Below are positions 14,784 to 56,962 of a stretch of 64,000 nucleotides of DNA, piece after piece. The notes below the pieces were generated by a model, which was not told where the DNA came from, ran no database searches, and saw only the letters and a list, made by a program, of their open reading frames with translations. The position numbers were made by a program, and so were the translations under genes. Source of the DNA: Desulfosarcina ovata subsp. ovata (lineage in GTDB: Bacteria; Desulfobacterota; Desulfobacteria; Desulfobacterales; Desulfosarcinaceae); NCBI RefSeq assembly GCF_009689005.1, contig NZ_AP021879.1, positions 1 through 64,000 on the forward strand, in the 5' to 3' direction. Numbering within the stretch: position 1 is the first letter of the stretch; the number at the start of each line of letters is the position of its first letter.

Positions 14784-14820
14784 TGAGTTATATTCAACTC
14801 CACTAACGTTCCGATGTCAA
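14784..14820 (-). promoter_or_regulatory. Shared catabolic promoter upstream of mmgE/prpD
   Basis: Minus strand: TTGACA (14815-14820), 17-base spacer, TTGAAT (14792-14797), three bases, ACTCA (14784-14788), then an AT-rich tract. The same spacing and boxes are found before bssD, bbsA and the second bbsH. Confidence 0.65.
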
Positions 14821-14842
14821 CAATTGTTTCAACAAGCCTGAT

Positions 14843-14986
14843 ATGGATCAGGACTGTTTTCGTATCGATCTGCGGCTTAACCAACTGGCCTATGCCCAAG
14901 CCCTAACCCGAGCCGGCTATTATCCAATGGTTGGCCAACTCGCCGGTCATAAAACTGTCGATCAAAAAGGAAGAATCGACCTGTAG
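14843..14986 (+). pseudogene. Possible tyrosine-recombinase C-terminal scrap
   Basis: A 47-codon frame ending TAG includes ALTRAGYYPMVGQLAGHKTV. This vaguely recalls the (L)-(AG)-x-LGHK region of tyrosine recombinases. There is no ribosome site and nothing homologous upstream. It could be a remnant of the integrase that used the tRNA site, but the match is weak. Confidence 0.2.
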
Positions 14987-15100
14987 TAAATAATCTAAAC
15001 TTGTTTTTCAGAGAGCGAAATCAAAGTTGATCGCTAACCATAGAATATGATATAATATTCTTTCTATCAAAAAGCCTGAATATTGGAAATCGACAACTAA

Positions 15101-15256
15101 GGCGATTGGCGGAAAAGAATATACCAGAATGCGCATGATTTTCATTCGTATTCAAGGCGGGCTTTTTTACGCATAGTGGGGCTATGTGTGGAAACGCCCA
15201 ACGCAGAAGACGGATGAAAAGCAGGCGGGTATATTCTTTGACAGAAATCGCCTAAC
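15101..15256. repeat. MITE-like inverted-repeat element (family with 29996)
   Basis: Imperfect terminal inverted repeats: GGCGATTGGCGGAAAAGAAT at 15101-15120 and, inverted, ATTCTTTGACAGAAATCGCC at 15234-15253. Inside are further complementary stretches (GATTTTCATTCG against CGGATGAAAAG). The same outer sequence recurs inverted at 30108-30127. It lies directly before the acyl-CoA ligase gene. Confidence 0.5.
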
Positions 15257-15276
15257 GACTTGGAGAATTGAAACAT

Positions 15277-16815: not shown

Positions 16816-16936
16816 GTCCAGGCATGGTGATATTCGCCATGGTCCTCGACACACATCCGGGCGAACGCCACTTTACCGGTTGTCCGAATTTTTCGAGTAA
16901 AGGGAATCGTGACCAAACTGATTCCTTTGAAATTCT

Positions 16937-17515: not shown

Positions 17516-17567
17516 AAAGTTATAATTAAGCGATCGCTATTACGAAAAAGGAGTTTAGCTGCTAAGC

Positions 17568-18089
<522 letters not shown>

Positions 18090-18090
18090 T

Positions 18091-19881: not shown

Positions 19882-20331
19882 CTATACCTTAGGTATCGGA
19901 TAGGTTCTGTAGACCAGCCTGCGTCTGGCAATATAGGCAATTTTTTTCATAATTAAATACCCCATCTGAAAATTCTGATAAAAGAGAAGTTGAAGTTCAT
20001 CGTTCCGAAAGCGAATTGCTTTTGTCGGCATCAGTGTTTTTGCATCACTGAGATATTCATGTTTTTTAGATTCAACCAAGGATGAAAAACCTATGGCACC
20101 ACCGGCCCCAATTGTTTCCAAACGGACGATTTTTCCAGAAAGGGTTTCTAGTTGTAAACCCACCTCGCCCTCTAAAATAACATAAAAGTAGTCTGCCGAC
20201 CTTTTTCTTTTATTCAGGTACACATCACTGTCGTACATTCTTAGTTCAGCAATGCCAGCGATGCTTTCAAGCATTTCATCAGACAAATCTTCGAAAAACC
20301 GAACAGGCCTAAGAATGCTTTTATCAACCAT
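19882..20331 (-). CDS. Cyclic-nucleotide-binding domain protein
   Basis: 149 aa containing one cNMP-binding beta-barrel (about 10-130; the start LRPVRFFEDLSDEMLESIA is typical, and a GGAIGF segment lies near 83). There is no DNA-binding helix-turn-helix, so it is a stand-alone ligand sensor and not a Crp-type repressor. It lies between the TRAP transporter and histidine kinase genes on the same strand (24 and 57 bases away). It probably modulates one of them. Confidence 0.78.
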   Translation of the reverse strand: MVDKSILRPVRFFEDLSDEMLESIAGIAELRMYDSDVYLNKRKRSADYFYVILEGEVGLQLETLSGKIVRLETIGAGGAIGFSSLVESKKHEYLSDAKTLMPTKAIRFRNDELQLLFYQNFQMGYLIMKKIAYIARRRLVYRTYPIPKV

Positions 20332-25504: not shown

Positions 25505-28093
25505 TTACAGATCGGCGTCGATAAATTCGTAATCCTCCGCGCCGAATTCCTGCTCGTTTCTGGCGATAATCGTATTCTGCCCATAGGTTGGTATGTCGAC
25601 GAACCTGGCGCTGAAGCCCGCCACCCGGACGATCAGATCCTGATGTTTTTCAGGTTCTTTCTGGGCCGCCTTCATTTCGGCGGTACTGACCACGTTGAAC
25701 TGCACGTGATCGATATTCAGGTCATGCCAGGTATCCATATACGCATGCCATACGTTAAAGCCATGTTGACTTCTCATAATAGGCAAAGACAGACGTTGGT
25801 TCAAAAGATTTGCCTTCTGATTTTTTTGCACCCTGGAGACCGATCGCAAGACGGCGGTGGGTCCCTTGGTGTCCGTACCCATATAGGGTGAGATCCCTCC
25901 GTCATCGGCGGCCTCGCCCCCGTACCGTCCGTCCGGGGTGGGGCCGGTTCGTGAACCGATCTCCATATAAAGCCCGACCGCCTGTCCTACGGGTAATACG
26001 GGGCCGCCGGAATAATTGGTGATCTTTCTCATTTCACCGCCGATGATGTCTTCATAGAAATCCTTAATGATTGCATCGGCATACTCATCATCATTTCCCC
26101 ACTTGGGAGCGTTTTTAAAATCCTTCCGCATTTCTTCAAAACCGTCCCAATTGGCCTTCAGCGCATCCATGAGCTGCTTCATGGTGTACTTTTTCTCATC
26201 ATAAATAAGCTTTTTAATGGCAACCAATGAATTCGCGGCTACAATGGTGGTAATCGGATTGTGCCAGCCGTTGGGTTGTTCGGAAAGCTCGCATGCGTCT
26301 CGGCCGAGTTCCATGCAGCCGTCGTCAATACTGGAAACGAACGGCATCTGGAGAAATTTTCCTTCAAAATAACGCAAGGTGTCTTTGCACCTGATGACCA
26401 GACTGGCTGCGTACTGGTACTGTACTTTGAACGCTTCCCAGAGTTTCTCGAAGGTATTGAAATCCTCCGCGTTGCCGGTCTTCGGGCCCAGCTGCATATC
26501 GGCGTATGACCAGTCGTAGCCGTCATTCAGCGTAACCTCCATGATCTTTGCCGGGAAAATGGAACCGCCGCCTTCAGAACGGGTCTTTTGGGTTTTTCTT
26601 CTTCCATGAATTCCGGGAGACATACAAAGGACATTTACCCAGTTGTGGGCCTCCTCGTCAGTCGCACCCTTTCCCTCGGTGCTGAATTTGCCGTACTCCT
26701 TCATCTGTTGGACGCCTATCTCGTCATGCTTGATGGAAGGATATCCCAGGCCGTCCCGAATACAACCAAATACCAGTTCCTTGGTCTTTGAGCGTCCCTT
26801 TTTTGAATACCGGAACATAAGAGACGGTTCCGTGGTCCGGATGTTTCTCGTTGCCTCCAAGATCGCATCGGTCATATCGTTGCAGGCATCGGACCCATCC
26901 GGAAGCGTACCGCCGAGGGAGATAATAAAAAGGTCATTGGATCCCGGAAAAATTTCCCGGTAAGCACGGGATTTGCCGGCCCCGTGTTCGGAGACCTTGA
27001 GCCGCTCCATCTCGACCATCTCAACTACATCCGCATGGGTCATGGGCTGGAAGGACTTATCGATCACACTATTTTGGTAATAGGGCCACAAAAGGGTATC
27101 CTCTTTGTGGGCCATACCGCTTGCATAACGGTCAATGGCATGGCAAAGTAGATAAGTATACCATTTTGCCTGGAAAGCGTCTTTAAGCCCTTTGCACGGT
27201 TCGGCCGGAACCCGTTGATTGATATCGGCAATCTCCAGCAGTTCCTCTTTACGTTTGGGATCGGTTTCGAAGTTTTCAGCAACGATTTTGCATAGCCTGG
27301 CATGGCGTCTGGCCCATGCGATAACCGCCTTGTCCACGAGAATCATCGCTTCCCAGTTATCGATCTTATCTAACCACGCAAGGCCTTTTGTCGCGTCCCA
27401 CGGCATTTCAGCCATTTTGTCCTTGGCCATTTGGATGTTTGCTTCCGCCAACTCGATCCGTTTGAGCAGGCCGTCTTCGAGGACCGTTTCATAAGGCGGT
27501 ACGATACTGTTATAACCGGTGGCAAACCCCGGGGCTTCCATGGTACTGACCTGGTACATCCGTTGAAGATCCTCTGGATCAAAGTAATGCTCGCATTTGC
27601 TCTGCATGCTGTACGGCACCCAGTAATCCATTATCTCTCTGGCTTCCTCCACTGGCTGAGGCGCGTAATCGGTGATCAGGTAATCGGCGACAGCCATATA
27701 GGCAAGTTCGGGATAGAGAGGAAACATGTTCGGATCTTCGGCATGGTATCCGATGATAAACTCGTCATCCTGTAAAACAACCGTGCATTTGTTCAGAATG
27801 TTGGCCAGCCCCAGCGCCCTGCGCATCACTTCCGGCTTTCCTTCGCTTGCTTTATGCGCTTCGGTCAGCAGCCGCATTCGCTCGATTCCGGCGCAAACCC
27901 CCTTTTCCACAAACTCCCCCGCCGAAGCATGTTTCCACCTGCATCGGGCTTTCAGTCTTTTGGTCCTTTCCGTGGACGGCTTGGCCAGGTGCTCGTGCAG
28001 TTCCTCATCTGGAATCTCATTTTCTGCAGCATATTCCAAGGGAAACTCCACCTTCTTTCCTTTATAATCAATCGCTTCCGCAGTTGTTACCAT
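25505..28093 (-). CDS. bssA: Benzylsuccinate synthase alpha subunit, glycyl-radical enzyme
   Basis: 862 aa, close to the 861-865 aa of known BssA. The catalytic cysteine is Cys490 in VLCMSPGI. Arg505 matches the fumarate-binding arginine downstream of it. The glycyl-radical site is Gly826 in IVRVAGFSARF, followed by a VDIPTYGQNTIIAR tail typical of the arylsuccinate synthases. It adds the methyl carbon of toluene to fumarate to make (R)-benzylsuccinate. The same fold covers hydroxybenzyl-, naphthylmethyl- and alkylsuccinate synthases, so the exact hydrocarbon is inferred, but the C-terminal region and length favour BssA. It stands 26 bases after bssC. It appears intact. Confidence 0.93.
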   Translation of the reverse strand: MVTTAEAIDYKGKKVEFPLEYAAENEIPDEELHEHLAKPSTERTKRLKARCRWKHASAGEFVEKGVCAGIERMRLLTEAHKASEGKPEVMRRALGLANILNKCTVVLQDDEFIIGYHAEDPNMFPLYPELAYMAVADYLITDYAPQPVEEAREIMDYWVPYSMQSKCEHYFDPEDLQRMYQVSTMEAPGFATGYNSIVPPYETVLEDGLLKRIELAEANIQMAKDKMAEMPWDATKGLAWLDKIDNWEAMILVDKAVIAWARRHARLCKIVAENFETDPKRKEELLEIADINQRVPAEPCKGLKDAFQAKWYTYLLCHAIDRYASGMAHKEDTLLWPYYQNSVIDKSFQPMTHADVVEMVEMERLKVSEHGAGKSRAYREIFPGSNDLFIISLGGTLPDGSDACNDMTDAILEATRNIRTTEPSLMFRYSKKGRSKTKELVFGCIRDGLGYPSIKHDEIGVQQMKEYGKFSTEGKGATDEEAHNWVNVLCMSPGIHGRRKTQKTRSEGGGSIFPAKIMEVTLNDGYDWSYADMQLGPKTGNAEDFNTFEKLWEAFKVQYQYAASLVIRCKDTLRYFEGKFLQMPFVSSIDDGCMELGRDACELSEQPNGWHNPITTIVAANSLVAIKKLIYDEKKYTMKQLMDALKANWDGFEEMRKDFKNAPKWGNDDEYADAIIKDFYEDIIGGEMRKITNYSGGPVLPVGQAVGLYMEIGSRTGPTPDGRYGGEAADDGGISPYMGTDTKGPTAVLRSVSRVQKNQKANLLNQRLSLPIMRSQHGFNVWHAYMDTWHDLNIDHVQFNVVSTAEMKAAQKEPEKHQDLIVRVAGFSARFVDIPTYGQNTIIARNEQEFGAEDYEFIDADL

Positions 28094-28482: not shown

Positions 28483-29457
28483 TCATTTTTTTTGCTTATC
28501 ACCTCCCATCCCCACCATGCCGCCAATGGTAATCTTTTTTATGCCGGCTGCTTTTAGCGCTTGGACTAGCGGTTTAAGGTTGCCGGCCGGCATATTCTTC
28601 ACGTTTTTAAATTGATATTCATCATGCCTGCCGAGGAATCGATATTTGGACTCGCCATAAACATGATAAGGCAGGGCATCGACGCCGTGGATATTATATT
28701 CAACAAATTGCCGCAAAAACTCTACATAGGCTTCGAAATCTTTATTCGTGTCATTAAAGCCCGGAATGATAGGAAGGTGTATTCGGACATTCGCTCCCGA
28801 TTCGAGAAGTTTTTGAATGTTGCTTAAAATTGGTTCCAAGGGCCATCCCACGGTCTCTTTGTGTTTTATCGGGTCGAGAGATTTTATATCTACCAGAAAC
28901 ATATCGACATAGGGCAAGAGCGGTTGAATTTTTTCCCATTTTGCAAAACAACTGGTCTCAATGCCCACATGGATTTGTTCTTCCTTTAATTTCTTCGCTA
29001 CTTCCAACGTAAATTTGGGGAATAGCAGGGGGTCTCCCCCGCTGATAGTAACGCCACCACCGCTGTTTTTATAAAATGGCCTGTCGGATATCACTTCCTT
29101 GATAATAGCATCAAACTCTAATTGCTGACCGACGGCTTCCCTTGCTCCGGTTGGACATGCTTCAATGCAACTCATATTCACGCAACCAGCGCACTTGCTG
29201 CGGTCAATGTTAAGAACTGGTTTGCCGTCAGCACTTGTCTCCATTGTTGAAGCTCCGCTGGGACAGACTTCAACGCATTTTCCACAATGAACACACTTGT
29301 CGGAATGATAATAAAATTCTTTTTCTGTGTGCTGCGTCTCAGGATTGTGGCACCATGGACAGTGCAAGGGACAGCCCTTGATAAAAATCGTGGATCGGAT
29401 TCCAGGACCGTCTTGAAGGCAGAATTGTTGAATTTCTGTGATAAGCGGTATTTTCAT
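28483..29457 (-). CDS. bssD: Benzylsuccinate synthase activating enzyme (radical SAM)
   Basis: 324 aa from the ATG at 29457, with AAGG nine bases upstream. An ATG three codons earlier abuts that site. The radical-SAM motif is CPLHCPWC (CxxxCxxC) near residue 28. Two ferredoxin-type four-cysteine inserts follow (CVHCGKCVEVCP and CAGCVNMSCIEACP), as in other glycyl-radical activases. GGGVTISGGDPL binds SAM. It makes the glycyl radical on BssA by abstracting hydrogen from Gly826. It is first in bssDCAB, with a strong promoter about 190 bases upstream. Confidence 0.94.
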   Translation of the reverse strand: MKIPLITEIQQFCLQDGPGIRSTIFIKGCPLHCPWCHNPETQHTEKEFYYHSDKCVHCGKCVEVCPSGASTMETSADGKPVLNIDRSKCAGCVNMSCIEACPTGAREAVGQQLEFDAIIKEVISDRPFYKNSGGGVTISGGDPLLFPKFTLEVAKKLKEEQIHVGIETSCFAKWEKIQPLLPYVDMFLVDIKSLDPIKHKETVGWPLEPILSNIQKLLESGANVRIHLPIIPGFNDTNKDFEAYVEFLRQFVEYNIHGVDALPYHVYGESKYRFLGRHDEYQFKNVKNMPAGNLKPLVQALKAAGIKKITIGGMVGMGGDKQKK

Positions 29458-29648
29458 ATGCAACATCCTTGATAGTCATGACCGCCAGCAAAGCGGGAAG
29501 CTCGACGAGTGAACCGCTCAAGGCGGTTATAGCAGCAATGCAGTCTCACAAACGCACAAGTGAACAAATTGCTCAAAAGCAGGGACCTGGTTAACCTTCC
29601 GAAGTCAAATTAAAAAACTAACTGTTACTATAGTTTCACACGAATTAT

Positions 29649-29684
29649 GAGTACGATTCTACTTGGCAAATATTTTCTTGTCAA
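29649..29684 (-). promoter_or_regulatory. Shared catabolic promoter of bssDCAB
   Basis: Minus strand: TTGACA (29679-29684), 17-base spacer, TAGAAT (29656-29661), three bases, then ACTCA (29648-29652 region). It has the same architecture as the promoters at 14784, 33685 and 56924. The leader to bssD would be about 190 bases. Confidence 0.7.
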
Positions 29685-31688: not shown

Positions 31689-31951
31689 GGACTGAGTAAT
31701 TTCCGATTAAATAATCGCATATTAACTTAGATCTCGTTCTTTGTAAAACAGGTTTTGGTGATTTTGATGAAATCGCAAAAAGCAGCTTACCCCGGCTTTT
31801 ATTGGATGAAAATAACTTTTTTAAAAGCCATCAGTGTTACATTATATTGCTTTTTTTTAGAGTATCATTCTATTCTAAATAAAAAGTCATCCGGAACGTC
31901 TGCCCGGTCCGCTTATCCGTTCCGGTCTGGCACCGTCATTTTCATGCTGAA

Positions 31952-31980: not shown

Positions 31981-32024
31981 ATAAAATAGATGCCAATAAT
32001 TTTTTTGGTACAAAAGGAGTGATT

Positions 32025-33230
32025 GTGGGGAAAAACAACAAAAAGGAGGCGATTTTGGCGGCGGCGCAGGAAATCTTCTCCGAAAAAGGACTGCGTGATG
32101 CAACCATCACCGAAATCGCTCAACAAGCCGGCGTGGTCGACTCGATCATTTACCACTATTTCAAGAACAAGGAAGACCTGCTGTACTGGGCGCTCGCCAA
32201 ACAGATGGAATTAGCGCTCAAAGAGCTCTCCTTTCACTTTGAGGGAATCATGGGACCGGTCTCCAAGCTCGGCAAGATGGTCTGGTTCCACCTTTACATG
32301 AACGACTACAATACCGGCAACGCGCGCATCTACAAGAACCTGCTATTCGAATGCCGTTCCAACAAGACGTTCCACAAGCACGAAAGCCGCAAAGCGTTAC
32401 AGAAATACACCCGGGTGCTGGTGGATATTCTTCGCCTGGGGGTGAATGATGGTTATTTTCGCAATGATTTGAATCTCATCCTGATCCGGGACATGATCTT
32501 CGGATTTCTGGATGAGGAGTCCCTGGCCTGTCTTTCCGCCCATGAAATATCCGAGACGCTGCCCGATTTCGACGCCATCATGGAGTTGATTCTGACCATG
32601 ATCGAAGCGCGGCCCGCCGACGGCGTTCAACCCAACGAAAAGGCCAACAAGGCCGATCTCGTCCGCGAGGCCGCCAAGGATATTTTTGCCGAAAAGGGAT
32701 TCAACAAATCCACCACCGTGGAGATCGCCAACCGCGCTGGCGTGGCCGAGGGGACGATCTATGAGCATTTCAAAAACAAGCAGGACCTTCTGTTCTCCAT
32801 TCCCAGGGAGCAATTCGCCGCCTATCGGAGGCAGATGGAAGAAGCCCACCGATCGAGCAACGCCTTGGTCCAGCTGCGCCAGATGATGTGGAGCCACTTC
32901 TGTATCTTTGTTTCTGACCGGCGCTTTCTGTTGGTCTATCTCAACGATATCAAATTGAATAAAAACTTTTACACCACCGACGCCTATCCCAATTTCATGC
33001 ACTACCTGGACCCGCTTTACGACATCCTCGAGCAGGGCAAAAGGAAGCGGCTGTTCAAGCCGAACCTGAACAACCGCATCTACCGCAACCTTTTTGTGGG
33101 CGCGTTCACCCACATGGCCATCCGCTGGTTCATTATCGGCGGTGCCAGCCCGCTGACGGTCATGGAAGAATTCAGTCAGGCGTGTGACCTGCTCTGCCGC
33201 GCCGTGCTGATCGATCCGTGGAATTCATGA
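32025..33230 (+). CDS. Tandem TetR-family regulator (two HTH domains), copy 2
   Basis: 401 aa starting at the GTG at 32025, with AAGGAG five bases upstream. The in-frame GTG at 32019 lies on the ribosome site. Two HTH units are seen: about 10-55 (SIIYHYFKNKEDLLYWA) and about 212-258 (GTIYEHFKNKQDLLFSI), each followed by a helical domain. It is nearly colinear with copy 3 at 55574, with long identical stretches, and more distant from copy 1. It lies between the bss and bbs operons and is a candidate regulator of them. GC-rich and compact compared with the AT-rich neighbours. Confidence 0.88.
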   Translation: MGKNNKKEAILAAAQEIFSEKGLRDATITEIAQQAGVVDSIIYHYFKNKEDLLYWALAKQMELALKELSFHFEGIMGPVSKLGKMVWFHLYMNDYNTGNARIYKNLLFECRSNKTFHKHESRKALQKYTRVLVDILRLGVNDGYFRNDLNLILIRDMIFGFLDEESLACLSAHEISETLPDFDAIMELILTMIEARPADGVQPNEKANKADLVREAAKDIFAEKGFNKSTTVEIANRAGVAEGTIYEHFKNKQDLLFSIPREQFAAYRRQMEEAHRSSNALVQLRQMMWSHFCIFVSDRRFLLVYLNDIKLNKNFYTTDAYPNFMHYLDPLYDILEQGKRKRLFKPNLNNRIYRNLFVGAFTHMAIRWFIIGGASPLTVMEEFSQACDLLCRAVLIDPWNS

Positions 33231-33684: not shown

Positions 33685-33723
33685 TTGACAAGATATTTGA
33701 ATTATATTTGAATAGCACTCAGT
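33685..33723 (+). promoter_or_regulatory. Shared catabolic promoter of the bbs operon
   Basis: TTGACA (33685-33690), 17-base spacer, TTGAAT (33708-33713), three bases, ACTCAGT (33717-33723). The spacer holds two TTTGAAT direct repeats 11 bases apart, a possible operator. bbsA starts about 60 bases on. Confidence 0.7.
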
Positions 33724-33784: not shown

Positions 33785-34228
33785 ATGGCAGAAACTAAGA
33801 AAAAAGGAAAAAAAAAGGAAAAAGAGCCGGATATTGTCTTTTTCCATCCTGATTTGTTTGAGGTTCCTGAGGACGGCTCAGCTCCATTTTTAAAGGGCTA
33901 TCGCTGCAAGAAATGTAACCAGATCGACTTTCCCAAAATAAGCCCTTGCCCCAATTGCTGGGGTGAGGAATTCGAAATGGTTGCGCTTAGCAGAGAGGGA
34001 ACCGTTTACAGCGCAACGGATATTTATATCGGCCAGGCCGGTATGGAGACCCCCTATGTTTTCGGATACGTTGATTTGCCGGAGGATTTAAGGATCTTTG
34101 CCCAATTTGAGGCTGATGTCGAAACCATTAACTGTGGTGATAAAGTTGAAGTGGTTGAAGGAATAATCCGCATGAACAATGACGGCCTTCCTTTGAAAAG
34201 TTATAAATTTAAAAAAATAAACGAATAG
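33785..34228 (+). CDS. bbsA: BbsA: zinc-finger/OB-fold partner of the BbsB thiolase
   Basis: 147 aa. A lysine-rich start is followed by a rubredoxin-like zinc finger (CKKCNQ ... CPNC, about residues 41-58) and an OB-fold domain of the DUF35 type. In Thauera/Geobacter, BbsA forms an integral complex with the thiolase BbsB for the last step of toluene beta-oxidation, cleavage of benzoylsuccinyl-CoA to benzoyl-CoA and succinyl-CoA. The GAAAGGAG before the ATG fits. First gene of the operon. Confidence 0.9.
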
Positions 34229-34253
34229 ATGCGAGTCATATTGGGGAGGGTAT

Positions 34254-35423
34254 ATGAAATTTCAAAGAGACGTCTATATCGCAGGAGTCGGAGAAACTGA
34301 CTTTAAACGTCAAAAAACCGATTTTGATGCCTTGGGACGGCAAGCGGCTTTTCAAGCGATAAAAAGCTCAAATATCGATAAGCCGGATATTATCCAAAGC
34401 GCCTATGTGGGCAATGCCACCAATGGCCTGGTCACCGGTCAGACCGTGTTTACCAGTCTTGGCATGTGTGGACACATGCCGATTATCAATGTGGAAAGTG
34501 CCTGTTCGGCCGGCGGGATGTCGGTGTATTGCGCCATTAAGGATGTAGCAACGGGACTTACGGATATATCTATCGGCGTAGGGACTGAAAACCACTCAAT
34601 GCATAGGGCATCCGGATCTGCCTTTTCCCCCGCCATGACAGATATTGAAACCATGCACGGGGCCGTGATGACGGGAAAATATGCCTTAAGGGCAAGGCGG
34701 TATATGTACGAAACCGGTGCAACAATAGAAGATTTGGCGCTGATTACTGTAAAAAACAGAAAACATGCCGCAAACAATCCCCATGCTTGGTTCAAGGGAG
34801 ACATCAGCGTGGAAGAGGTCGTCAATTCAAGAATGGTTGCCTATCCGTTAACACTGCAACAATGCTGCGGAATTTCAGATGGTGCGGGCGCCGTAGTGGT
34901 TTGTACAAAAGAGATGATAAAAAAACTGGGCATTGAAAAACCGGTTAAGGTGAACGGTTCCGTCGTGCGGTCCGGTCCTTATCATAACCGTCCGCGCGAT
35001 ATTACCGCCGACGACATTACCGAAGCAACCGCTGAACAGCTTTACGAGGAATCGGGTATCGGACCGGAAGATGTGGATATCCTTGAAGTGCATGATGCGT
35101 TCACGATTGCCGAACTCCTGTACTATGAATGCCTCGGGCTGTGTAAGAAAGGAGACGGTCTCAAATTTTTACGTGATGGGCAGGCAACGTATGGCGGGCA
35201 ATGTGTTGTAAGTCCTCGAGGAGGGATGTTGTCCTACGGTCATCCCATCGGAGCATCCGGTGCGGCCATGATTGCATCGCAAGTCAAACAGCTCCGGGGT
35301 GAATGCAATGGCTATCAGGTTGATCCGATACCGAAAATAGCCATGACCCATGTCACCGGCGGAGGATTATCGGGAACCGAGCACGCTGCCTGTACGATGC
35401 ACATGTTGTCAGCTGCCTGGTAA
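34254..35423 (+). CDS. bbsB: BbsB: benzoylsuccinyl-CoA thiolase subunit
   Basis: 389 aa, thiolase of the SCP-x type. The nucleophile is Cys84 in [10 protein letters not shown], and the C-terminal [10 protein letters not shown] and THVTGGG motifs complete the thiolase set. With BbsA it cleaves benzoylsuccinyl-CoA using CoA. It has GGGAGG upstream and starts 25 bases after bbsA. It is intact and typical, so the final pathway step is preserved. Confidence 0.92.
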
Positions 35424-35430
35424 GATGTAT

Positions 35431-35524
35431 CGGCTCATCGTGGATTCGTGTGAAAACCAAACTTGTGGTTTTAATTTTCGCCGAAAATCAGTGGGGAAAA
35501 TTCACACCAATCCGAGATGAGCCG
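35431..35524. repeat. 94-bp inverted-repeat element between bbsB and bbsC
   Basis: Arms CGGCTCATC...GTGTGAA (35431-35453 region) and the inverted TTCACAC...GATGAGCCG (35500-35524) pair with few mismatches. It fills most of the 155-base gap inside the operon and would form a long RNA hairpin that may affect the downstream genes. Confidence 0.6.
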
Positions 35525-35578
35525 TTGTATCTAATCATATGTTTTTGTAATTTTTTATAGGTAAAGGAGGGACCGAGA

Positions 35579-36328
35579 ATGGGTGGTATAAAAGATAAGG
35601 TCGCAGTCGTTTCCGGTGTAACGAACGAGATCGGTGAAACCATCAGCCTAAGATTTGCTGATGAGGGCGCGAAGGTTGTCGTCTGTGATATCGACCAACA
35701 GCGGGTAGACACCATCGTTGAAAAAATCAAGGGAAAAAATCAACAGGCAATGGGGTTTGCAGTGAATTTTTCAGACCCCGAAAATGTTAAGAAAACCATT
35801 GATGAAATCACGGATAAATTTGGGGCCATCGATGTTCTGGTGAATAATCTGGATGAATCGCAAGGCTGGGAGATTGCCGACGTGACAGATGAGCGTTGGG
35901 AAAAGTCTTTAGCCGCAAACATGAATGCCGTGTTTTATTTTTGCCGTGAAATCGTTCCGGGTATGCGAAAAAATCAATATGGAAGGGTAATTAATATAAG
36001 CGGTATCGATTACCTCGGAGGGCCGGGAAAATCGAATTGTTCGGCGACAAAAGCCGCGGTTTTCGGCCTGACAAGATCCCTCGCACTTGAATCCGCAAAA
36101 GACAATGTGACGATAAATTGCGTGATCAAGGGCGATATTGCAGGATCTGATATCTCAGAGGAGCAATCCGAGAAAATGGCTGCACGGATCCCGGTGAAAA
36201 AGGTCGGCAAACCGGAAGATGTTGCTATGGCTGTTAACTTTTTTGCGTCGGAGAGCGCCAAATATGTAACCGGTCAGATGTTGTTCGTCTGCGGTGGAAA
36301 AAGCTTGTACTCTTCCATGTCTGTTTAA
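35579..36328 (+). CDS. bbsC: BbsC: non-catalytic SDR subunit of hydroxybenzylsuccinyl-CoA dehydrogenase
   Basis: 249 aa short-chain dehydrogenase fold. The catalytic Tyr of the YxxxK motif is replaced by Cys154 (NCSATK, Lys158 kept), and the nucleotide-binding TGxxxGxG reads GVTNEIGE. In the characterised BbsCD complex, BbsC is an inactive partner and BbsD is catalytic, and this sequence fits that. It has AAAGGAGG upstream. It follows a MITE-like element and precedes bbsD by 54 bases. Confidence 0.9.
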   Translation: MGGIKDKVAVVSGVTNEIGETISLRFADEGAKVVVCDIDQQRVDTIVEKIKGKNQQAMGFAVNFSDPENVKKTIDEITDKFGAIDVLVNNLDESQGWEIADVTDERWEKSLAANMNAVFYFCREIVPGMRKNQYGRVINISGIDYLGGPGKSNCSATKAAVFGLTRSLALESAKDNVTINCVIKGDIAGSDISEEQSEKMAARIPVKKVGKPEDVAMAVNFFASESAKYVTGQMLFVCGGKSLYSSMSV

Positions 36329-36382
36329 TCGGCCGGCATCATATGGTTTGTGCGAATGGCTTTCATTATCTGGAGGTATAAA

Positions 36383-37129
36383 ATGGGTATTAAAAACAGG
36401 GTCGCCCTGATAACTGGATCAGCAAGCGGTATGGGGAAACAAACTGCGATGAGGATGGCGGAAAACGGCGCCAAAATCGTCATCAACGATATTGTTTCCG
36501 AAAAGGTAGATGAAACGGTAAAAGAATTTAAAAAAGCAGGGTTTGATGTGATCGGGAAGGTTGCCGATATTTGTAACAAGTCCTCCGTTGAAAACATGGT
36601 CAAAGAAACAGTGGACACTTTTGGTGGTCTTGACATCCTGGTCAACAATGCCGGAATGGAACGGGCCGGCGCTTTAAGAAAACTGAGTGAACAAGATTGG
36701 GATATTACCCTCAATGTCAACTTAAAAGGGGCTTTCCTGTGCAGCTAGGTGGCGCATAATCACATGGTTGAAAAGAAGCACGGCCGAATTATCAATATTG
36801 CATCACGAGCGTGGTTGGGGGGGCCCGGTCAAGCGCCTTACTCTTCGGCAAAAGCTGGCATGGTCGGCTTAACAAGAACGCTTGCGCTCGAACTGGGCGG
36901 AAAGGGCATTACATCAAACTGCATTGCGCCGGGACTGATTCATACGCCCTTGTGGGATGAATTGCCGGAAAAAAATAAAGCGTTTTTGCTCAGTAAACAG
37001 CCAACGGGAAAATTGGGCGATGTGGATGACGTGGCCAATGCCATTCTTTTTTTCGCCGATGATGACGCCGGTTTTATTACCGGGCAAGTATTGTATACAT
37101 GCGGCGGCAGGAGCCTTTTTTCAGGATGA
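36383..37129 (+). pseudogene. bbsD: BbsD: catalytic SDR subunit, interrupted by in-frame TAG
   Basis: 248-residue SDR frame from the ATG at 36383 (GGAGG upstream) with TITGSASGMGK-type cofactor motif (LITGSASGMGK) and catalytic Ser141, Tyr153 and Lys157 (APYSSAK). Codon 122 is TAG (36746-36748), after GAFLCS and before VAHNH, while the frame is otherwise perfect on both sides. It oxidises 2-[hydroxy(phenyl)methyl]succinyl-CoA with NAD. Either a single nonsense mutation kills it, or the stop is suppressed or decoded (pyrrolysine), or it is a sequencing error. The downstream part has its own GTG at 36749 but lacks the cofactor domain. Confidence 0.88.
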
Positions 37130-37257
37130 AAAAAAAGAAATCATCAACAGATTTCTTCTGCTATCTGAAAAAATGAAGGACTGAAACTCCCGTACCCAAA
37201 TAAATTTTGGTGGTACGTTGGCCGGCGATACAATTTGGATCTAAAGGAGGTAAAATT

Positions 37258-38493
37258 ATGGTTGAAACAGACAATTCCCTGGCCAACGTCAGGGTGTTGG
37301 ATTTTACCGGTGAGTTGGGGCCGTATGCGGCTAAGCTATATGCAGGTTTGGGTGCAGAGGTCATCCATATCGAGCCGATTGGAGGAGATCCGTTAAGAGA
37401 TGTAGGCCCCTTTTATAAAGGCGTCCCCCGAAAGGATGGCAGCCTACCGTTTCTCTACTATAACGCAGGTAAAAAAGGTATTTCTTTCGATATAAAGACC
37501 GAAACCGGCAAAGAGATTTTTATTAAACTATGTGAAACCGCGGATGTTCTTTTTGAAAGCTTTGCTCCTGGCTTCCTTGATGATTTGGGCCTATCCTATG
37601 AGAGGTTAAGTGCGGTGAATCCCAAGCTGGTGCAGACATCGATCACGCCTTTTGGGCAATTCGGTTCACGGGCTGGCCAACCGGGTTGTGATTTAACCTG
37701 CTCCGCACTGGGCGGGTTTTTATTTTTAGCGGGTGTTGGAAATGAAAAGCCGGTCAGGGTTTCCGACAACCAAGCATACCGGATGGCAGAGGCATACGCC
37801 GCTGTCGGCAGCTCGATTGCGCTGTTATTTGCACAAAAAACGGGGATAGGACAATTTGTTGATGTTTCCTGCATGGAATCGGTGGGCATGGCGCTTGAAA
37901 ATGCAATCCAGTATTGGGATCTGGAAGGAAAAATTCGCCGAGGCAGAGGCAAGGAAGCCGGAACGGCCACGATTCATCCCTGTAAGGATGGCTTTGTTGC
38001 GATTGTAGCGATTATGGGAAAAAACAAGGTGATGTGGGAACCTTTTGTAAAATGGATGAAAGATGAAGGTGTTGAAGAATGGGAAATCTTTGACGATGAT
38101 AAATGGATTGACCCCGATTACCGATCATCAGCGGAGGGTTACGAACTGTTCTGCCGAATCTTTGAACGCTTTACCTTGCAAAAAGACAAGCTTTACCTTT
38201 ATGATCAGGGCCAGGCGCACCGCGTGGCCATCACCCCGGTAAGTAACGGAAAAGATCTTTTGGAAAATCCTCAGTTGAATTACCGTAATTTCTGGAAAAC
38301 CCTGAAACATGACAACCTTGACGGGGAAGTCGTATACCCCGGCTCTCCATATGAATTTGGGAACCTTACCTGGCGCCTTGGCGATCCGGCCCCGATATGC
38401 GGTCAGCATACGGGCGTAATACTTGAAGAGCTTGGATACACCAAAGAAGATGTCAGTGCGATGGCAAAGGAGGGAATAATCCATGTCGCTTAA
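37258..38493 (+). CDS. bbsE: BbsE: succinyl-CoA:benzylsuccinate CoA-transferase subunit
   Basis: 411 aa, class III CoA-transferase (CaiB/BaiF) with the family start [27 protein letters not shown] region. In this family a catalytic Asp follows the segment aligned as GVPIAD. Here the matching position is Tyr174 (NQAYRMAE), so this subunit looks inactive. BbsF carries the Asp. The ATG at 37258 has AAAGGAGG seven bases upstream. The stop overlaps bbsF by 11 bases, so the two subunits are made together. Confidence 0.88.
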
Positions 38494-39712
38494 TTTAAAA
38501 AAAGCACTTGAGGGTATTGTGGTATGCGATTTTTCCTGGGTAGGGGCAGGACCGATTACGACCAATGTTCTTGGCCAGTGTGGTGCTGAAATTATAAAGA
38601 TCGAAAGCCTGAAACGTCCGGATATCCTGAGAAAGGGCGGCCCTTTTAAAGATGGTATCGGTGAGGGATTGGAACGAAGCGGGTATTTCGCCAATCGGAA
38701 TCCCAATAAAAAGTGCATTGCCTTGAATATGTCTAAGCCGGAAGCCCGTGATGTCGCGGTTCGATTAATCAAAAAAAGCGACATCATTATTAATAATTTC
38801 CGAGTCGGGCAGATGGAAAAGTGGAATTTGGGATGGGAAGATGTCAGCAAAATAAATCCTCGCATCATCTACGTTACGATGAGTTTGCAGGGTACCAGTG
38901 GGCCGCATAGCAAATATATGGGGTTCGGTGTCAATTTAAACGCGCTTTGCGGGTTGACCGCTCAAGCGGGGGTTCCGGGCCAGCCTCCTTTCGGAACGGG
39001 TACAAATTACACGGACCATGTGATGGTGCCCAGTCATACGCTGTTCGGCATTATGGCGGCGCTGCTTCAACGCGAGAAAACCGGAAAGGGGCAAACCATC
39101 GCCATTTCACAATTGGAATCGGCAATCAGCATGAAACCCGTCGACGCCATGGCTTATGCATCGCATGAAGAAATAGCCGGTCCCATGGGATTCGCCGACG
39201 ATAATGCCGCCCCCCACGGTGTATACACAACGCTTGGGTATAGAAGTTGGATTGCTATCGCGGTTTTCAATGAAGACGAGTGGCAAAGGCTCAAAAGCGT
39301 AATGGAATTTCCTGCCTGGGCTGAAGATGAAAAATTTTCAACCATGACGAAACGGAAGGAAAACGAACAGGAACTCAATCAAAGAGTCGAAGCCTGGACC
39401 AAGGGTCAATATGGAGACTGGCTGGAGAAAAAGCTTGCCGGCAATGCCATTAAAGCAGGTGTCGTCAATGATGCACGGGCTGCGATAGAAGATGATTCTC
39501 TCCGGCAAAGGGAGTTCTGGGCGTATCTTGACCATCCCGTGGTGGGAAGTACACTGTATAATCGCGCACCGATTGTATTTTCCAAGACACCCACAGAGAT
39601 GAATACCGCAGCGCCGATATTGGGGGAACATACAAAACAGGTTTTAACCGACATGCTTGGATACAACGAGGAGGAAGTTGCGCGACTTACCGAAGAAGAT
39701 GTGCTGGTTTAA
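38483..39712 (+). CDS. bbsF: BbsF: succinyl-CoA:benzylsuccinate CoA-transferase catalytic subunit
   Basis: 409 aa, class III CoA-transferase. The catalytic Asp is about Asp178 ([11 protein letters not shown]), in the canonical position. It transfers CoA from succinyl-CoA to (R)-benzylsuccinate, releasing succinate that can be oxidised back to fumarate for BssA. Overlap with bbsE supports a heteromer. Intact. Confidence 0.9.
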
Positions 39713-40302
39713 TATCTTGAGTGAAATCAATTTGTTATATTAAGCAAGGGGGGATAAATGGATTTTTCGATATCTGAAGAGTATATGATGCTTAAAGAGG
39801 CGACGGCAGAATTTGTAAAAAGAGAGATGTTGCCTTTGGATAAAATGTTGCTGGAACGGGATCTGGCCCTGTGGACCGAACCGGGGCCGCTGATTCCCGA
39901 AGAAGACCATGACCGGCTAATGCAAAAAACCAAAGAGATCGGTTTATGGGGGTTGGAGGTTGAAGAAAAATTTGGGGGACAGGGTCTTGGAATGCTGGCC
40001 AAAACCCTGGTTATGGAGGAAATGTCAAAGTCAGTCGTCGGGTTTTCGCATCATGGTTTCACCCTGCCGCCCGATGCACCCAATCTATACTATTTGCATG
40101 AGTGTTGTTCCGAAAGTCAGAGGGATAAATACTTTAAGCCATACTGCAATGCTGAAATCGACTCAGCCATGGCAGCGTCCGAACCCGGTGCCGGTTCTGA
40201 CGTCAGCGGTTTGAAAACGATTGCGGTGCGCAAAGGTGACAAGTGGTTGATTAACGGTACAAAAACATGGATCAGCAAATGTGACTATCCTTCGGTTTTT
40301 TT

Positions 40303-41711
40303 CCAATACTGTTCGGCATATATATTGCCATAACATCCTGTTATTAAAATAAAAAATAGCACTGGACAAAAAGATCGCTTTGTGTTTTAATCATGGTGGG
40401 TACAATTAATTAATCAGGAGGTCTCCATGAGCGAACACATCGACAAAAATGTTTTTCAAACAATTCTATCACCGGTGCTACCATTGATTGAGGTTAATCA
40501 AAATAGTCTCCATAATGATTTGGACACTTACAAGCTTTCATTATCATCGTTCACCACAAATTTGCTTTTTGGAATAATAACCAGAATTAAAAGCGTTGGA
40601 CAAATCGTCACTGAGATCAAAACATCACCAACTGCTAAGGCATTAGGATTGGTCGTCGCATCGAAGTCTATGTATAATGAAGCGTTTAATCGTTATCCCC
40701 CAGAAATATTTAAAGATATATTCCATCAGTTGGTAAAAGAATTGGATTTGCATAAAATTCCGGAAATCAGTCATCTTGGAAAAATGCTAATTGTAGATGG
40801 TTCGCTTTTTCCGGCCATTTCCAATATGGCATGGGCTTGTTACAAGAAAACCGCTAATGCGATCAAAATGCATTTATCTTTTGAACTCAACCGAATGATT
40901 CCAACCGAATTTATCAGTACGGAAGGTAACTTTTCCGAAAAAGAATTTGTTAAGCAAATTCTTCGCGAAGGCATTACATATGTCTGTGATCGAGGCTATA
41001 TCGCTTTCAATCTGTTCAAGCAGATATCCGACAGCAATGCATTTTTTATTATTCGCGGAAAGTCGAATATGACGTACACTGTAAAAGAGTGTCTCACTGC
41101 CACCGTACCGGATACATTCTTGAAATTTTTCAGTGACATCACAGATTCAAATATAATATTCAATAGCGATGAAAACAAAGCAAGTTATCGTATTGTTAGC
41201 TTTACGGCTATGGGCGAAAACTACATTTTGATCACAAACAGAAATGATTTGACAACTTACGAAATTATAATGCTTTACGCTTACAGGTGGCAAGTGGAAC
41301 TTTTTTTTCGCTTCATAAAAAGAACCTTCAAGGGAATTCACTTAATGAGCCAATCTCCTCATGGCGTACAGATACAATTCTACTTGTATATGATTGCTTA
41401 TCTATTGTTATTATCATTCAAACAAGATACGGAAATAATAAGCAGAGAAAATGAAAAAGATGAGCATGAATCTGAAGAAAATAATAAGAACGAAACCTTG
41501 CTAACTTCATCTTCATGCTCCAATTCAAATGCAAAAAGACCATATGTTTGCGGGTTAGTAACTCTTCTTGGAGAAAAATTAAAACAGTTTTATAAAATTG
41601 GTCTTCACTGGTTATTAGCAGTAAAAAATAATTTGTTAGAAATATTTGATGTGAATATCGCCAAAGTTATTGCTCAATACTCTTATCAATGAATGTGCCG
41701 AACAGTATTGG
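40303..41711 (+). mobile_element. IS4-family insertion sequence in bbsG
   Basis: 1409 bp bounded by inverted repeats of 16 perfect bases (CCAATACTGTTCGGCA at 40303 and inverted at 41696-41711). A run of seven T flanks both sides (40296-40302 and 41712-41718), consistent with a 7-base target duplication. One transposase gene inside. Identical ends and a clean target site suggest recent insertion. Confidence 0.92.
40427..41692 (+). CDS. IS4-family DDE transposase
   Basis: 421 aa, full-length. Asp in LIVDGSLFPA (about 125), a second Asp in CDRGYIAF (about 190) and Glu in a YRWQVELFFRFIKR segment (YREK-type signature, about 290) form the DDE set. GGAGG precedes the ATG. Intact, so the element may still move. 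AT-rich. Typical of IS4 or the ISPepr1-like subgroup, with the subgroup assignment tentative. Confidence 0.9.
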   Translation: MSEHIDKNVFQTILSPVLPLIEVNQNSLHNDLDTYKLSLSSFTTNLLFGIITRIKSVGQIVTEIKTSPTAKALGLVVASKSMYNEAFNRYPPEIFKDIFHQLVKELDLHKIPEISHLGKMLIVDGSLFPAISNMAWACYKKTANAIKMHLSFELNRMIPTEFISTEGNFSEKEFVKQILREGITYVCDRGYIAFNLFKQISDSNAFFIIRGKSNMTYTVKECLTATVPDTFLKFFSDITDSNIIFNSDENKASYRIVSFTAMGENYILITNRNDLTTYEIIMLYAYRWQVELFFRFIKRTFKGIHLMSQSPHGVQIQFYLYMIAYLLLLSFKQDTEIISRENEKDEHESEENNKNETLLTSSSCSNSNAKRPYVCGLVTLLGEKLKQFYKIGLHWLLAVKNNLLEIFDVNIAKVIAQYSYQ

Positions 41712-42456
41712 TTTTTTTCATACTGATTGCCGTCACGGACAAAGATGCCCCGAGCAAAGACAAATTTACGGCATTTCTTATCGACAGGGATACACCGGGT
41801 TTGAGAATCGGTCGCGAAATTCCTGTTATGGGCGCCATGCCGACGTGGGATCTCATTCTGGAAGATGTTGAGGTCGGAGACGATGCCGTGCTTGGAGAGG
41901 TCGGTAAGGCTTTTATACCGCTGCAGAACCGGTTCGGTGTGCGCAGGATCGAGCTGGCGTCTCATTGTACCGGAATGGCGGAAAAATTGATTCAAATGAT
42001 GATCGATCAGGCGAATACCCGTGTAACATTCGGCCAGCCATTGGCTACGAGGCAGACGGTTCAGAACTGGATTGCAGATTCTACAATAGAACTGGAGGGG
42101 GTTCGTTTACAACTTTATTATGCAGCTTGGAAATCTGACCAGGGGTACAAAGATTTGCGAATTGAGGGATCAGCCATAAAGGTGGCGGCAACCGAGATGT
42201 TGACCCGAGTGGCCGATAGAGCGATTCAGCTCCATGGCGGTCTTGGACTGTCACATGAATTGGGGATCGAGTATGTTGCTCGTATGGTCAGAATCTGGCG
42301 AATTCTGGAAGGTCCTTCGGAAATTCACAGATGGGCTCTGGCTAGGGCATTACTCAAACAGAAAAAACCATACGACCCGTTTATTGTCGAAAAAGAGAAC
42401 TAACGCGGGAAACCCGTAACCCATGTGCCTCTCCTCAATTTTTTGTTTTCTCGACA

Positions 42457-52655: not shown

Positions 52656-52660
52656 CATTA

Positions 52661-52768: not shown

Positions 52769-52783
52769 ATGAAGGAGGAATCC

Positions 52784-54054: not shown

Positions 54055-54126
54055 TCCGGACCTGAAATCGGACTGTTCGGACTGTGTGGAAGTAGTCATT
54101 GATTAAAAAACAAGGGGGGAAGCCAT

Positions 54127-54873
54127 ATGAATTTGAATTATCAGGCAATAATCGTTAATGAAGACGATAGGGGCCTTCCCATAGGGCAGGGAAACGGAAT
54201 TTTGATGGACAGTGTTAGAGGAATCGTATCAACTGTGGCTCATGGTGTCAAACGGGGCAGTAAGTGCAAGGTTTTTTTAGGAGACAGAGCATATAATGCA
54301 GCATTCCAGAATGATGCCATTGATTGGCGTATGGATATGGCTCTGGTAACCCTGGATGATACGTGGGATGAGCCCCTCGCCTCTTCACCTGCTACGGCCG
54401 ATTCACGCGATGGAGATGAGATAATAATTCCCGGATTCCTGCCCTGTGAGAACAGTGAAGCAAAGGGTATATTGCGCTCATATTATAATCTGAATATATC
54501 CAAAGAAATATGTCCTGTCTCTGTAGCGGGGAAAATTGTGGCTATGCACGAAAGCCTGGCCCGCATGGGGGTTGACGCTTTTTTAAACGAAATCGCTGAC
54601 TTAGAACAGACTAAAAATAGTCTCTCTGTCTCAATTGAAAAAAACCGCTTATTTTATGATGACTACATCATCTTAGAGATTGGGGGACTTGACAAACAGA
54701 TAGCTACGGGGCTTAGCGGTTCTCCTGTAGTGGATGTCAAAGGCGAGATCATAGGTATTTTTTCTATTATGCTTAATGACGATAACCTTAATATGGGTGC
54801 TGCAATACCCATCGCAGAGGCTAAAAGACTTGTTACTGAATTTGTCGATGGCCAACAAGAGAAATTTGATTGA
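54127..54873 (+). CDS. Trypsin-like serine protease
   Basis: 248 aa, no signal peptide. The catalytic triad candidates are His in STVAHGV (about 39), Asp in RMDMALV (about 71) and Ser in TGLSGSPV (about 201), in the order of the chymotrypsin fold. A helical insert of about 60 residues separates Asp and Ser. No PDZ domain is visible, so it is not a classic DegP. Substrate unknown. It stands 72 bases after the E1-like gene and may be co-transcribed. Confidence 0.75.
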   Translation: MNLNYQAIIVNEDDRGLPIGQGNGILMDSVRGIVSTVAHGVKRGSKCKVFLGDRAYNAAFQNDAIDWRMDMALVTLDDTWDEPLASSPATADSRDGDEIIIPGFLPCENSEAKGILRSYYNLNISKEICPVSVAGKIVAMHESLARMGVDAFLNEIADLEQTKNSLSVSIEKNRLFYDDYIILEIGGLDKQIATGLSGSPVVDVKGEIIGIFSIMLNDDNLNMGAAIPIAEAKRLVTEFVDGQQEKFD

Positions 54874-55499
54874 ACATTTAAGGCGCTGAAGGACCACGAA
54901 CAGGCTTCATCAAAATAAATGGTGTCGCCAAAGGTCAACATGCCCGACCAGTAGCCCCGTTTGACCCCAGCGTGGCAGCCGCAGCAGAAAATGTCGTCAT
55001 GCAGAAAACGAGAATGCCCCAACCGGCAGCGCATAACCAACGAATCTGTCCATTAATCATTTTTCCCCTCTGTTCCCGAAAGCGCTTACTGAAATCCACA
55101 CGCCATCTCAATTCCTCTGCGTTCAAATGTATCATACTGAGTAGAATTCGAGTTAATAAAAAGCAATTTGTCAAACTCTTTTAAAAAACCCGGCCGTTTT
55201 GGCGGTGTTTGCAATCGCACTTAAACCACCTGAAAATTCTGTAAACCATATCGTTGATAATTTTTAAAATATTAATTAAATAAAGTTAGATAGCATGCAA
55301 AACGCGGTTTGCTGGTTTCGGCAGTCAATGAGTGCTGATACAAATGGCCGTCCAAGTTCATGGAGCAATCCAAACATAATAAAATTTAACCATTTGTTGC
55401 TATTTTTTGAGCTTAATTCTTTTTCTAATAAAAAGTCATCTGGAGCTTCTGCCCGGCCCGCCGATCCATTGCGGTTTGCACCGTCGCTTTCAAGCCGAA
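54874..55499. other. Intergenic, with possible gene debris
   Basis: On the minus strand an ATG at about 55057 has a good GGGG site and encodes a 41-aa secretory-type start (AAGWGILVFCMTTFSAAAAT), then stops. A second frame further on has a heme-type CCGCH segment. Together these suggest a frameshifted cytochrome scrap, but the match is weak. From about 55400 the sequence matches the upstream region of TetR copy 2. Confidence 0.35.
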
Positions 55500-55528
55500 T
55501 TGAGCTTGCCAAACCCTCGGGGTAAATA
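55500..55528 (+). promoter_or_regulatory. Putative promoter of tandem-TetR copy 3
   Basis: TTGAGC (55500-55505), 17-base spacer, TAAATA (55523-55528), matching the site before copy 2. Confidence 0.45.
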
Positions 55529-55573
55529 ATAAAAGAGAGACCAATCAATTTTTTTGGTGTAAAAGGAGTAATT

Positions 55574-56779
55574 GTGAACAAAAACAACAAAAAAGAGGCG
55601 ATTCTGGCGGTGGCCCAGGCAATCTTCACCGAAAAAGGCCTCCGTGATGCGACCATCACCGAAATCGCCAAAGAAGCCGGCGTAGTCGACTCGATCATCT
55701 ACCACTATTTCAAGAATAAGGAGGACTTGCTATACTGGGCCTTCGCCGAGCAGATGAAACTGGCGCTCAAGGAGCTCTATTTTCACTTTGAAGGCATCAT
55801 GGGGCCGGTCTCCAAGCTCGGCAAGATGGTATGGTTCCACCTGTATATGAACGACTTCAATAAGGGCAATGTCCGTATCCACAAGAATCTGTTTCTCGAA
55901 TGCCGCTCTAACAAGGAATTCTACAATCACGAATGCCGCAAAACACTTCAAAAATATACCCGGGTTCTGGTGGACATTCTCCGCCTCGGGATCGAGGAGA
56001 ATTATTTTCGAAACGATATCAATGTGTTGCTGGTAAGAGACGTGATCTTTGGTTTTTTGGACGAAGAGTCCTTGGCGTGCCTGTCGGCCGGAGAGATTTC
56101 CGAGACCCTCCCCGATTTCGAGGCCGTGATGAGCCTGATTCTGACTATGATCGAAGTCCGGTCCGAGGCAGAGGCCCCGTCTTCCGGAAAAGCAAGCAAG
56201 GCCGACCTGGTACGGGATGCGGCCAAAGCGGTGTTTGCCGAAAAAGGCTTCAACAAATCCACAACCCTGGAAATTGCCAACCGCGCCGGCGTTGCCGAGG
56301 GCACCATCTACGAGCACTTCAAAAACAAGCAGGACCTCCTTTTTTCCATTCCCAGGGAAAAATTTCAGATCTATCGGCACGAGATGGAAGAGGCCTACCG
56401 GTCGGACGACCCATTGATTCAACTGCGCCAGATCATGCGGAGCCACTTCCTGATTTTCCTCTCCGATATCCGTTTCCTGCTGGTCTATCTCAACGATGTC
56501 AAGCTGAATAAGCAGTTCTACACCACCGAAGCCTATCCCCAGTATTTGCGCTACCTTGATCCGCTTTATGAAATCCTCGAACAGGGCAAGCAGAAAGGTT
56601 TGTTCAAGCAGGATCTGAATAACCGGATCTACCGCAATCTGTTTGTGGGTGCCTTCACGCATATGGCCATTCGCTGGTTTATCATCGGCAACCTCAGCCC
56701 GCTGACGGTGATGGAAGAGTTCAACCAGGCCTGCGAATTGCTCTGCCGTGCGGTGTTAATCAGTCCTCAAAAGATCTGA
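55574..56779 (+). CDS. Tandem TetR-family regulator (two HTH domains), copy 3
   Basis: 401 aa from the GTG at 55574 with AAGGAG five bases upstream. Two HTH domains (about 10-55 and 212-258) as in copy 2 at 32025, to which it is very similar along the whole length, including start codon and ribosome site. GC-rich. It lies directly upstream of the second bbsH-etf operon, in the same direction with a 361-base gap containing the shared promoter. A plausible regulator of that operon, by position only. Confidence 0.88.
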   Translation: MNKNNKKEAILAVAQAIFTEKGLRDATITEIAKEAGVVDSIIYHYFKNKEDLLYWAFAEQMKLALKELYFHFEGIMGPVSKLGKMVWFHLYMNDFNKGNVRIHKNLFLECRSNKEFYNHECRKTLQKYTRVLVDILRLGIEENYFRNDINVLLVRDVIFGFLDEESLACLSAGEISETLPDFEAVMSLILTMIEVRSEAEAPSSGKASKADLVRDAAKAVFAEKGFNKSTTLEIANRAGVAEGTIYEHFKNKQDLLFSIPREKFQIYRHEMEEAYRSDDPLIQLRQIMRSHFLIFLSDIRFLLVYLNDVKLNKQFYTTEAYPQYLRYLDPLYEILEQGKQKGLFKQDLNNRIYRNLFVGAFTHMAIRWFIIGNLSPLTVMEEFNQACELLCRAVLISPQKI

Positions 56780-56923
56780 TACTCCAAAATAGCCCCATTT
56801 CTGAACAATCTTAATATTTTCAAGCCTGTTGGATTAAAAATCCGTTCAATCCGCATATCCCGCTTTCCCAACCCCCTCGCCGTCGATCAATCATTTTTTT
56901 TGAAAATCTTATCAAATAATCTA

Positions 56924-56962
56924 TTGACAACAAGTCACAATGATGATTGAATTTGACTCAGT
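56924..56962 (+). promoter_or_regulatory. Shared catabolic promoter of the second bbsH-etf operon
   Basis: TTGACA (56924-56929), 17-base spacer, TTGAAT (56947-56952), three bases, ACTCAGT (56956-56962). Same pattern as before bbsA (33685), including the extra GT after ACTCA. The remaining gap to 57141 is AT-rich and shows no gene. Confidence 0.7.

Follow-up and report, generated by a model that had tools for sequence, protein, structure and literature searches.

A shared promoter module at hydrocarbon-breakdown genes of Desulfosarcina ovata, predicted to be bound by tandem TetR repressors

The window, by which we mean the whole 64,000-nucleotide stretch of Desulfosarcina ovata subsp. ovata DNA analyzed here (contig NZ_AP021879.1, positions 1 to 64,000), comes from a sulfate reducer and carries bss and bbs genes for anaerobic toluene degradation, a gene for an MmgE/PrpD family protein, three genes for tandem TetR regulators and a recurring promoter sequence. 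The features are as follows.

8203..9450, minus strand: tandem TetR A, 415 aa (TetR_N twice, TetR_C_4)
13383..14684, minus strand: MmgE/PrpD family protein (PF03972, PF19305)
14784..14820, minus strand: predicted promoter-operator module 5′ of mmgE/prpD, exact match
25505..28093, minus strand: bssA, benzylsuccinate synthase alpha subunit (1593 bits to TutD of PDB 4pkc)
28483..29466, minus strand: bssD, glycyl-radical activating enzyme (TIGR04003, 476.8 bits, just under the cut-off of 496.45)
29648..29684, minus strand: predicted promoter-operator module 5′ of bssD-bssA, exact match
31859..31872, minus strand: putative self-operator of tandem TetR B (TAGAATGATACTCT), one mismatch
32019..33230, plus strand: tandem TetR B, 403 aa, adjoining bbsA (TetR_N twice, TetR_C_4; structural model nearest Mce3R)
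33685..33721, plus strand: predicted promoter-operator module 5′ of bbsA, exact match
33785..42403, plus strand: bbsA to bbsG run (Pfam domains)
55138..55174, minus strand: fifth copy of the module, one mismatch (TCGAAT for TWGAAT)
55574..56779, plus strand: tandem TetR C, 401 aa, adjoining the second bbsH (TetR_N twice, TetR_C_4)
56924..56960, plus strand: predicted promoter-operator module 5′ of the second bbsH-etfBA-FeS run, exact match
57142..61663, plus strand: second bbsH, etfBA, FeS oxidoreductase

Three of the bbs genes have irregular reading frames. The bbsD-like SDR gene (36350-37129) has an in-frame TAG at 36746-36748; since 10 of the 10 homologues compared have Q at this position, the stop looks like a nonsense mutation. 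Pyrrolysine at the TAG was rejected on the same comparison and because no PylS scored above the cut-off (one weak match). The bbsG-like acyl-CoA dehydrogenase gene (39758-42403) is interrupted by a DDE transposase gene (40427-41692), of which the genome contains further copies at 99.8 to 100% identity, and the second bbsH (57142-57913) is spread over two overlapping frames, as if frameshifted. The bbsA to bbsG run has kept an exact promoter, even though it may no longer be in use.

The pattern TTGACA-N17-TWGAAT-N3-ACTCA was matched exactly four times in the window and not once across 100 shuffles. These are the four sites that an earlier note on this DNA had named; its ends at 33723 and 56962 count an extra GT, which does follow ACTCA at both the bbsA and second bbsH sites, and TTTGAAT is present twice in the bbsA site, as it described. 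Its statement that the window holds no other copy stood for exact matches, but the one-mismatch copy at 55138-55174 (minus) had been overlooked. Located upstream of tandem TetR C and facing away from it, this copy reads into a 66-codon frame without known kinship; the box was rejected as the promoter of an MDH-like remnant, no kinship having been detected. The next start codon follows the ACTCA box at a distance of 99 bases for mmgE, 181 for bssD, 63 for bbsA and 181 for the second bbsH.

AAGTnAAATT lies ~16 bases 3′ of ACTCA, in the same register, at the mmgE, bbsA and second bbsH sites (window 14784, 33708, and 56947), and the bssD site is without this downstream flank. At ~31685-31700, 5′ of an MDH-like gene (30402-31688), ATTACTCAGT of the D. 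cetonica promoter is retained, while its TTGACA and TTGAAT are lost.

All four exact sites have TTGACA followed by a spacer of exactly 17 bases. This is the usual sigma-70 promoter frame, and ordinary sigma-70 promoters might be alike by chance. The genome was scanned as one contig of 7,630,248 bases (7.63 Mb). It holds five exact copies of the pattern, the four window sites and one at 7525701 (plus), and two copies with one mismatch, at 55138 (minus) and 1464338 (plus). The scatter of unrelated matches that the earlier note had named as evidence against a shared architecture was not seen. TTGACA-N17-TWGAAT occurs nine times in the genome; ACTCA follows after exactly 3 bases in five of the nine and TCTCA in one, and five of nine with ACTCA at a fixed place corresponds to a P value of ~1e-13 if a chance of 1/1024 is assumed. 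Together with the empty shuffles and the presence of the same module 5′ of the same genes in other genera, this makes chance likeness extremely improbable.

The sites might also be alike through recent duplication of a promoter along with its genes, rather than through selection on a binding site. Regulators B and C, each just before a module, are 80% identical, as such a duplication would predict. However, any two of the seven best sites share only 2 to 10 of their 17 spacer bases, which argues that the sites are not recent copies of one segment, and the module is retained in other genera despite different spacers. We regard recent duplication as a very remote explanation.

The core TWGAATNNNACTCA alone has 11 copies in the genome, versus 0 for the reversed pattern. 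Around three of the 11 (5366191, 6105085, and 6867604) there is neither a tandem TetR gene nor a bss or bbs gene of the kind sought; a 35% SDR match adjoins one of these three. A second bbs-type operon (bbsC, D, G, H, etfBA, FeS protein, and TRAP genes) follows the site at 1464338, which itself comes 0.5 kb after the tandem TetR gene at 1462643; the exact site at 7525701 is 15 kb from the tandem TetR gene at 7540872.

All three regulators of the window contain two complete TetR units in one polypeptide, and their TetR_C_4 domains are YsiA-like. The genome encodes six such paralogues; the three outside the window, near 1462643, 4884740, and 7540872, are full-length. Regulator B is a 403-residue open frame, and its structural model covers both units. 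The two helix-turn-helix (HTH) motifs of a chain are not identical: in most rows compared, the recognition helices read (V/A)DS.IYHYF in unit 1 and EGTIYEY in unit 2. Regulator B scored 176.4 bits with NF053878, the NCBIfam FadR equivalog, below the cut-off of 200, and falls outside FadR by this measure. Mce3R was the top match of its model in both Foldseek and VIA-align; the latter lists mostly single TetR chains, so that the lack of other double TetRs there is uninformative.

Across relatives, the conserved unit is TNGAAT-N3-(A/C)(C/T)TCA, a near-palindrome that overlaps the -10 hexamer. Its half-sites, TGAAT and TGAGT (or TGAGG), face each other across 3 bases, such that the ACTCA box at the start site is one half-site and the other lies within the -10 hexamer. 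The idea that the start-site box may be an operator was borne out in part: an operator is supported, but it is likely the composite of -10 and ACTCA, not ACTCA alone. At catabolic genes the unit comes 17, rarely 18, bases after TTGACA (18 at loci L063, L086, and L210). Near tandem-TetR genes the core mostly stands without TTGACA, in either orientation and ~75 to 440 bases upstream; at L167 and L168 a full promoter lies directly 5′ of the tandem-TetR gene.

This distribution bears on whether a dedicated sigma factor recognizes TTGACA-N17-TTGAAT-N3-ACTCA, with the box as a promoter element and not an operator. Such a factor would account for the 17-base spacing fixed in most sites, the unusual -10 TTGAAT and the constant orientation at catabolic promoters. 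It would have no need, however, of core copies without TTGACA, in both orientations, near tandem-TetR genes, and the sites with an 18-base spacer also speak against it; we consider a dedicated sigma factor quite improbable.

The promoter sites mostly have unlike halves (TGAAT facing TGAGT or TGAGG), and a symmetric form, TTGAAT-N3-ATTCA, is also found near some tandem-TetR genes. A strictly asymmetric operator is weakened by these symmetric sites, which imply that two unlike halves are not strictly required. HTH residues were compared by eye for covariation with A- or C-CTCA, and no clear pattern was found. Column conservation was computed over 38 promoter sites and 20 other sites that had been picked by pattern; it is partly circular and supports no test.

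The one-mismatch core at 31859-31872 is probably a self-operator of tandem TetR B, and the D. cetonica orthologue of this regulator has an exact core at the same distance. Tandem TetR A has no core site within 900 bases upstream.

The core was counted as near a tandem-TetR gene if it lay ≤800 bases upstream or ≤500 bases downstream. It was found near 28 of 41 tandem-TetR loci, at 52 sites where the remainder of these loci would predict 1.4, and none of 61 other TetR loci had it nearby. The 41 loci comprise a 31-locus set, the six of this genome and four fetched by promoter pattern (L167, L168, L171, and L177); without these four the count is 24 of 37, and in the 31-locus set alone it is 20 of 31. 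Ten of the 61 control loci have open frames of >330 aa and perhaps include some distant tandem proteins; these ten are without the core, as are all 51 with open frames up to 330 aa. Thirteen of the 41 tandem-TetR loci, window regulator A included, have no core nearby. The loci are related to each other, and P values therefore overstate independence. These counts support the link to the tandem TetR proteins, which the earlier note had put forward for binding tests.

In 10 of 13 loci examined the promoter lay 5′ of bbsA, and in 7 of 10 it lay 5′ of the first bss gene; none of 49 internal genes from the same bss and bbs clusters had it. This comparison covered 35 loci (the 31-locus set, the window and L041 to L043) and 700 bases upstream, with one mismatch each allowed in the core and in TTGACA. 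In D. magnum, one of the three missing bss cases, the site lies just beyond the 700 bases.

At the level of whole genomes, TTGACA-N17-TWGAAT-N3-(A/C)CTCA was found in 18 of 389 genomes of the order, at 32 places, and the reversed control in 0. A tandem TetR (E≤1e-38) was present in 15 of the 18, versus 55 of the 389 overall (Fisher 2e-11), and the exact pattern was present in 13 of the 14 genomes with a tandem TetR of at least 45% identity. Three promoter-positive genomes (G040, G219, and G364) gave no tandem TetR match at E≤1e-38. The G040 site is 5′ of bbsA, in a genome that is 83% complete; the G219 site is by a PIN-domain gene and the G364 site by GntR and LysR genes, and these two may be chance matches.

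It is conceivable that another regulator, for example of the Crp/Fnr type or a response regulator, binds the site and that the tandem TetR is a mere neighbor. Fnr-type sites read TTGAT-N4-ATCAA, which the symmetric TTGAAT-N3-ATTCAA resembles, and the window encodes a response-regulator-like protein (17568-18089) and a cNMP-binding protein (19882-20331). In denitrifiers, bss is run by the two-component system TdiSR, according to excerpts of PMC5874301. Yet the core tracks the tandem-TetR gene even at L077, L079, and L080, where the window proteins matched no bss or bbs gene, and it is near none of the 61 other TetR loci. A different regulator is, in our judgment, unlikely.

Two Desulfobacula genomes have the module in corrinoid-protein/methyltransferase clusters with B12-binding, URO-D, and pterin-binding domains, three times in L170 (7288-7726) and twice in L172 (7401-7841). 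Queries with the tandem TetRs of the window found no tandem TetR in the 15 kb read at each.

The mmgE gene had been drawn into the toluene pathway on the strength of its promoter, and its joining to bss is supported by linkage. In D. cetonica, the orthologue of regulator A (87%) is followed by mmgE (85%), divergent to bssD-bssA, and in D. widdelii an MmgE relative (54 to 58%) closes the run bssD-bssA-AAA5-VWA-DUF4125. In the window, a transposase and ATPase pair (10481-12530) separates regulator A from mmgE. Linkage and operator together support a tie of MmgE to bss, from which a functional role is only inferred. Among solved structures, MmgE is nearest to Bacillus IRG1 and IDS-epimerase, and a substituted succinate as its substrate would be no more than a guess.

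The earlier note had read the sites as one regulon of the toluene pathway. The shared module stands, but this scope is too narrow: with six paralogous regulators in the genome a single regulon cannot be concluded, and more than one fumarate-addition pathway is involved. The genome encodes a second glycyl-radical enzyme, 56% identical to the BssA of the window, from another clade whose members adjoin bbs in Desulfobacula and Desulfotignum; 4.7 kb of other open reading frames lie between the 7525701 site and the gene for this enzyme. In one genome (G263), the promoter accompanies both glycyl-radical clades, in one case with an 18-base spacer, and both have a tandem TetR close by, which suggests that the module likely serves pathways beyond toluene. 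The same genome has, at L210, a second bss cluster with a BssA of 84% identity, its own orthologue of tandem TetR A (67%) and the spacer-18 module 5′ of bssD.

We are fairly confident that all four sites carry the same promoter-operator module, TTGACA-N17-TNGAAT-N3-(A/C)CTCA, with tandem TetR repressors as the predicted binding proteins. The module is likely a shared on/off switch of hydrocarbon-breakdown pathways, predicted to be shut by these double-TetR regulators. Its core spans the -10 and the expected start; the -35 is perfect and the -10 a compromise. A tandem TetR on the core would block RNA polymerase at the -10/start region, with each of its two different HTH domains reading one half-site, and a pathway intermediate, likely an aryl-succinate or its CoA thioester, would release it; repression lifted by a pathway intermediate is the simplest reading. 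The tandem TetRs would also control themselves via core copies near their own genes, and MmgE would serve the same pathway. The FadR-like halves and the analogy with MbdR suggest a CoA thioester as the inducer.

The closest known systems are FadR, Mce3R, MbdR and TdiSR. Bacillus FadR, of the TetR family (PDB 3whb, 3whc, and 5gpc), is a single-unit protein, unlike the tandem TetRs here. Its operator is TGAATGA..TCATTCA, the spacing of which would differ from that of the core. Mce3R (PDB 9b7y) is described in excerpts of PMC11667970 as an autoregulated double TetR repressor with a nonpalindromic, asymmetric 25-bp operator. Like the regulators studied here, it has two TetR units with two different HTHs in one chain of ~400 residues; it differs in sequence (14 to 18% identity), phylum and target genes (mce3 lipid genes), and its operator contrasts with a near-palindromic 14-bp core that is joined to the -10 of a fixed promoter and also takes symmetric forms. 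MbdR of Azoarcus sp. CIB (PDB 4uds), as far as excerpts of PMC4424350 describe it, is likewise a TetR repressor of an anaerobic aromatic pathway whose operator spans the -10 and start and whose inducer is a CoA thioester, 3-methylbenzoyl-CoA. It is, however, a single TetR acting as a homodimer on a palindromic operator (ATAC-N10-GTAT) in another pathway. TdiSR governs the same bss and bbs enzyme steps in denitrifiers but is a two-component system with another proposed site (excerpts of PMC5874301).

The same excerpts mention, without giving an operator, that obligate anaerobes such as Desulfobacula have TetR-like regulators near bss-bbs. Excerpts of PMC13416013 place TetR-like genes near bss-bbs or give them a likely role for toluene and p-cresol; those of PMC11887813 note a TetR-like role for p-cresol and report a TetR palindrome for sulP, and those of PMC2988823 contain nothing on TetR. 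A full-text search of CC0, CC BY, and CC BY-SA papers returned no description of this operator.

A wider proposal, to which we give even weight for and against, is that sulfate reducers govern anaerobic hydrocarbon activation by single-chain, pseudo-dimeric TetR switches. These would act on a single hard-wired operator, mostly asymmetric, that is built into the -10 of a fixed promoter, and the six paralogues of one genome would share it in a cross-talking network over several fumarate-addition pathways, including MmgE and an MDH-like enzyme. Little is known of how obligate anaerobes turn on toluene and related pathways; denitrifiers rely on a two-component system. Since the module is short and exact, and the regulator family and sites can be named, the question is open to direct testing. 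Regulons could then be predicted in uncultured organisms that degrade hydrocarbons, and the way in which fused TetR proteins recognize DNA with unlike half-sites would gain a second, independent case.
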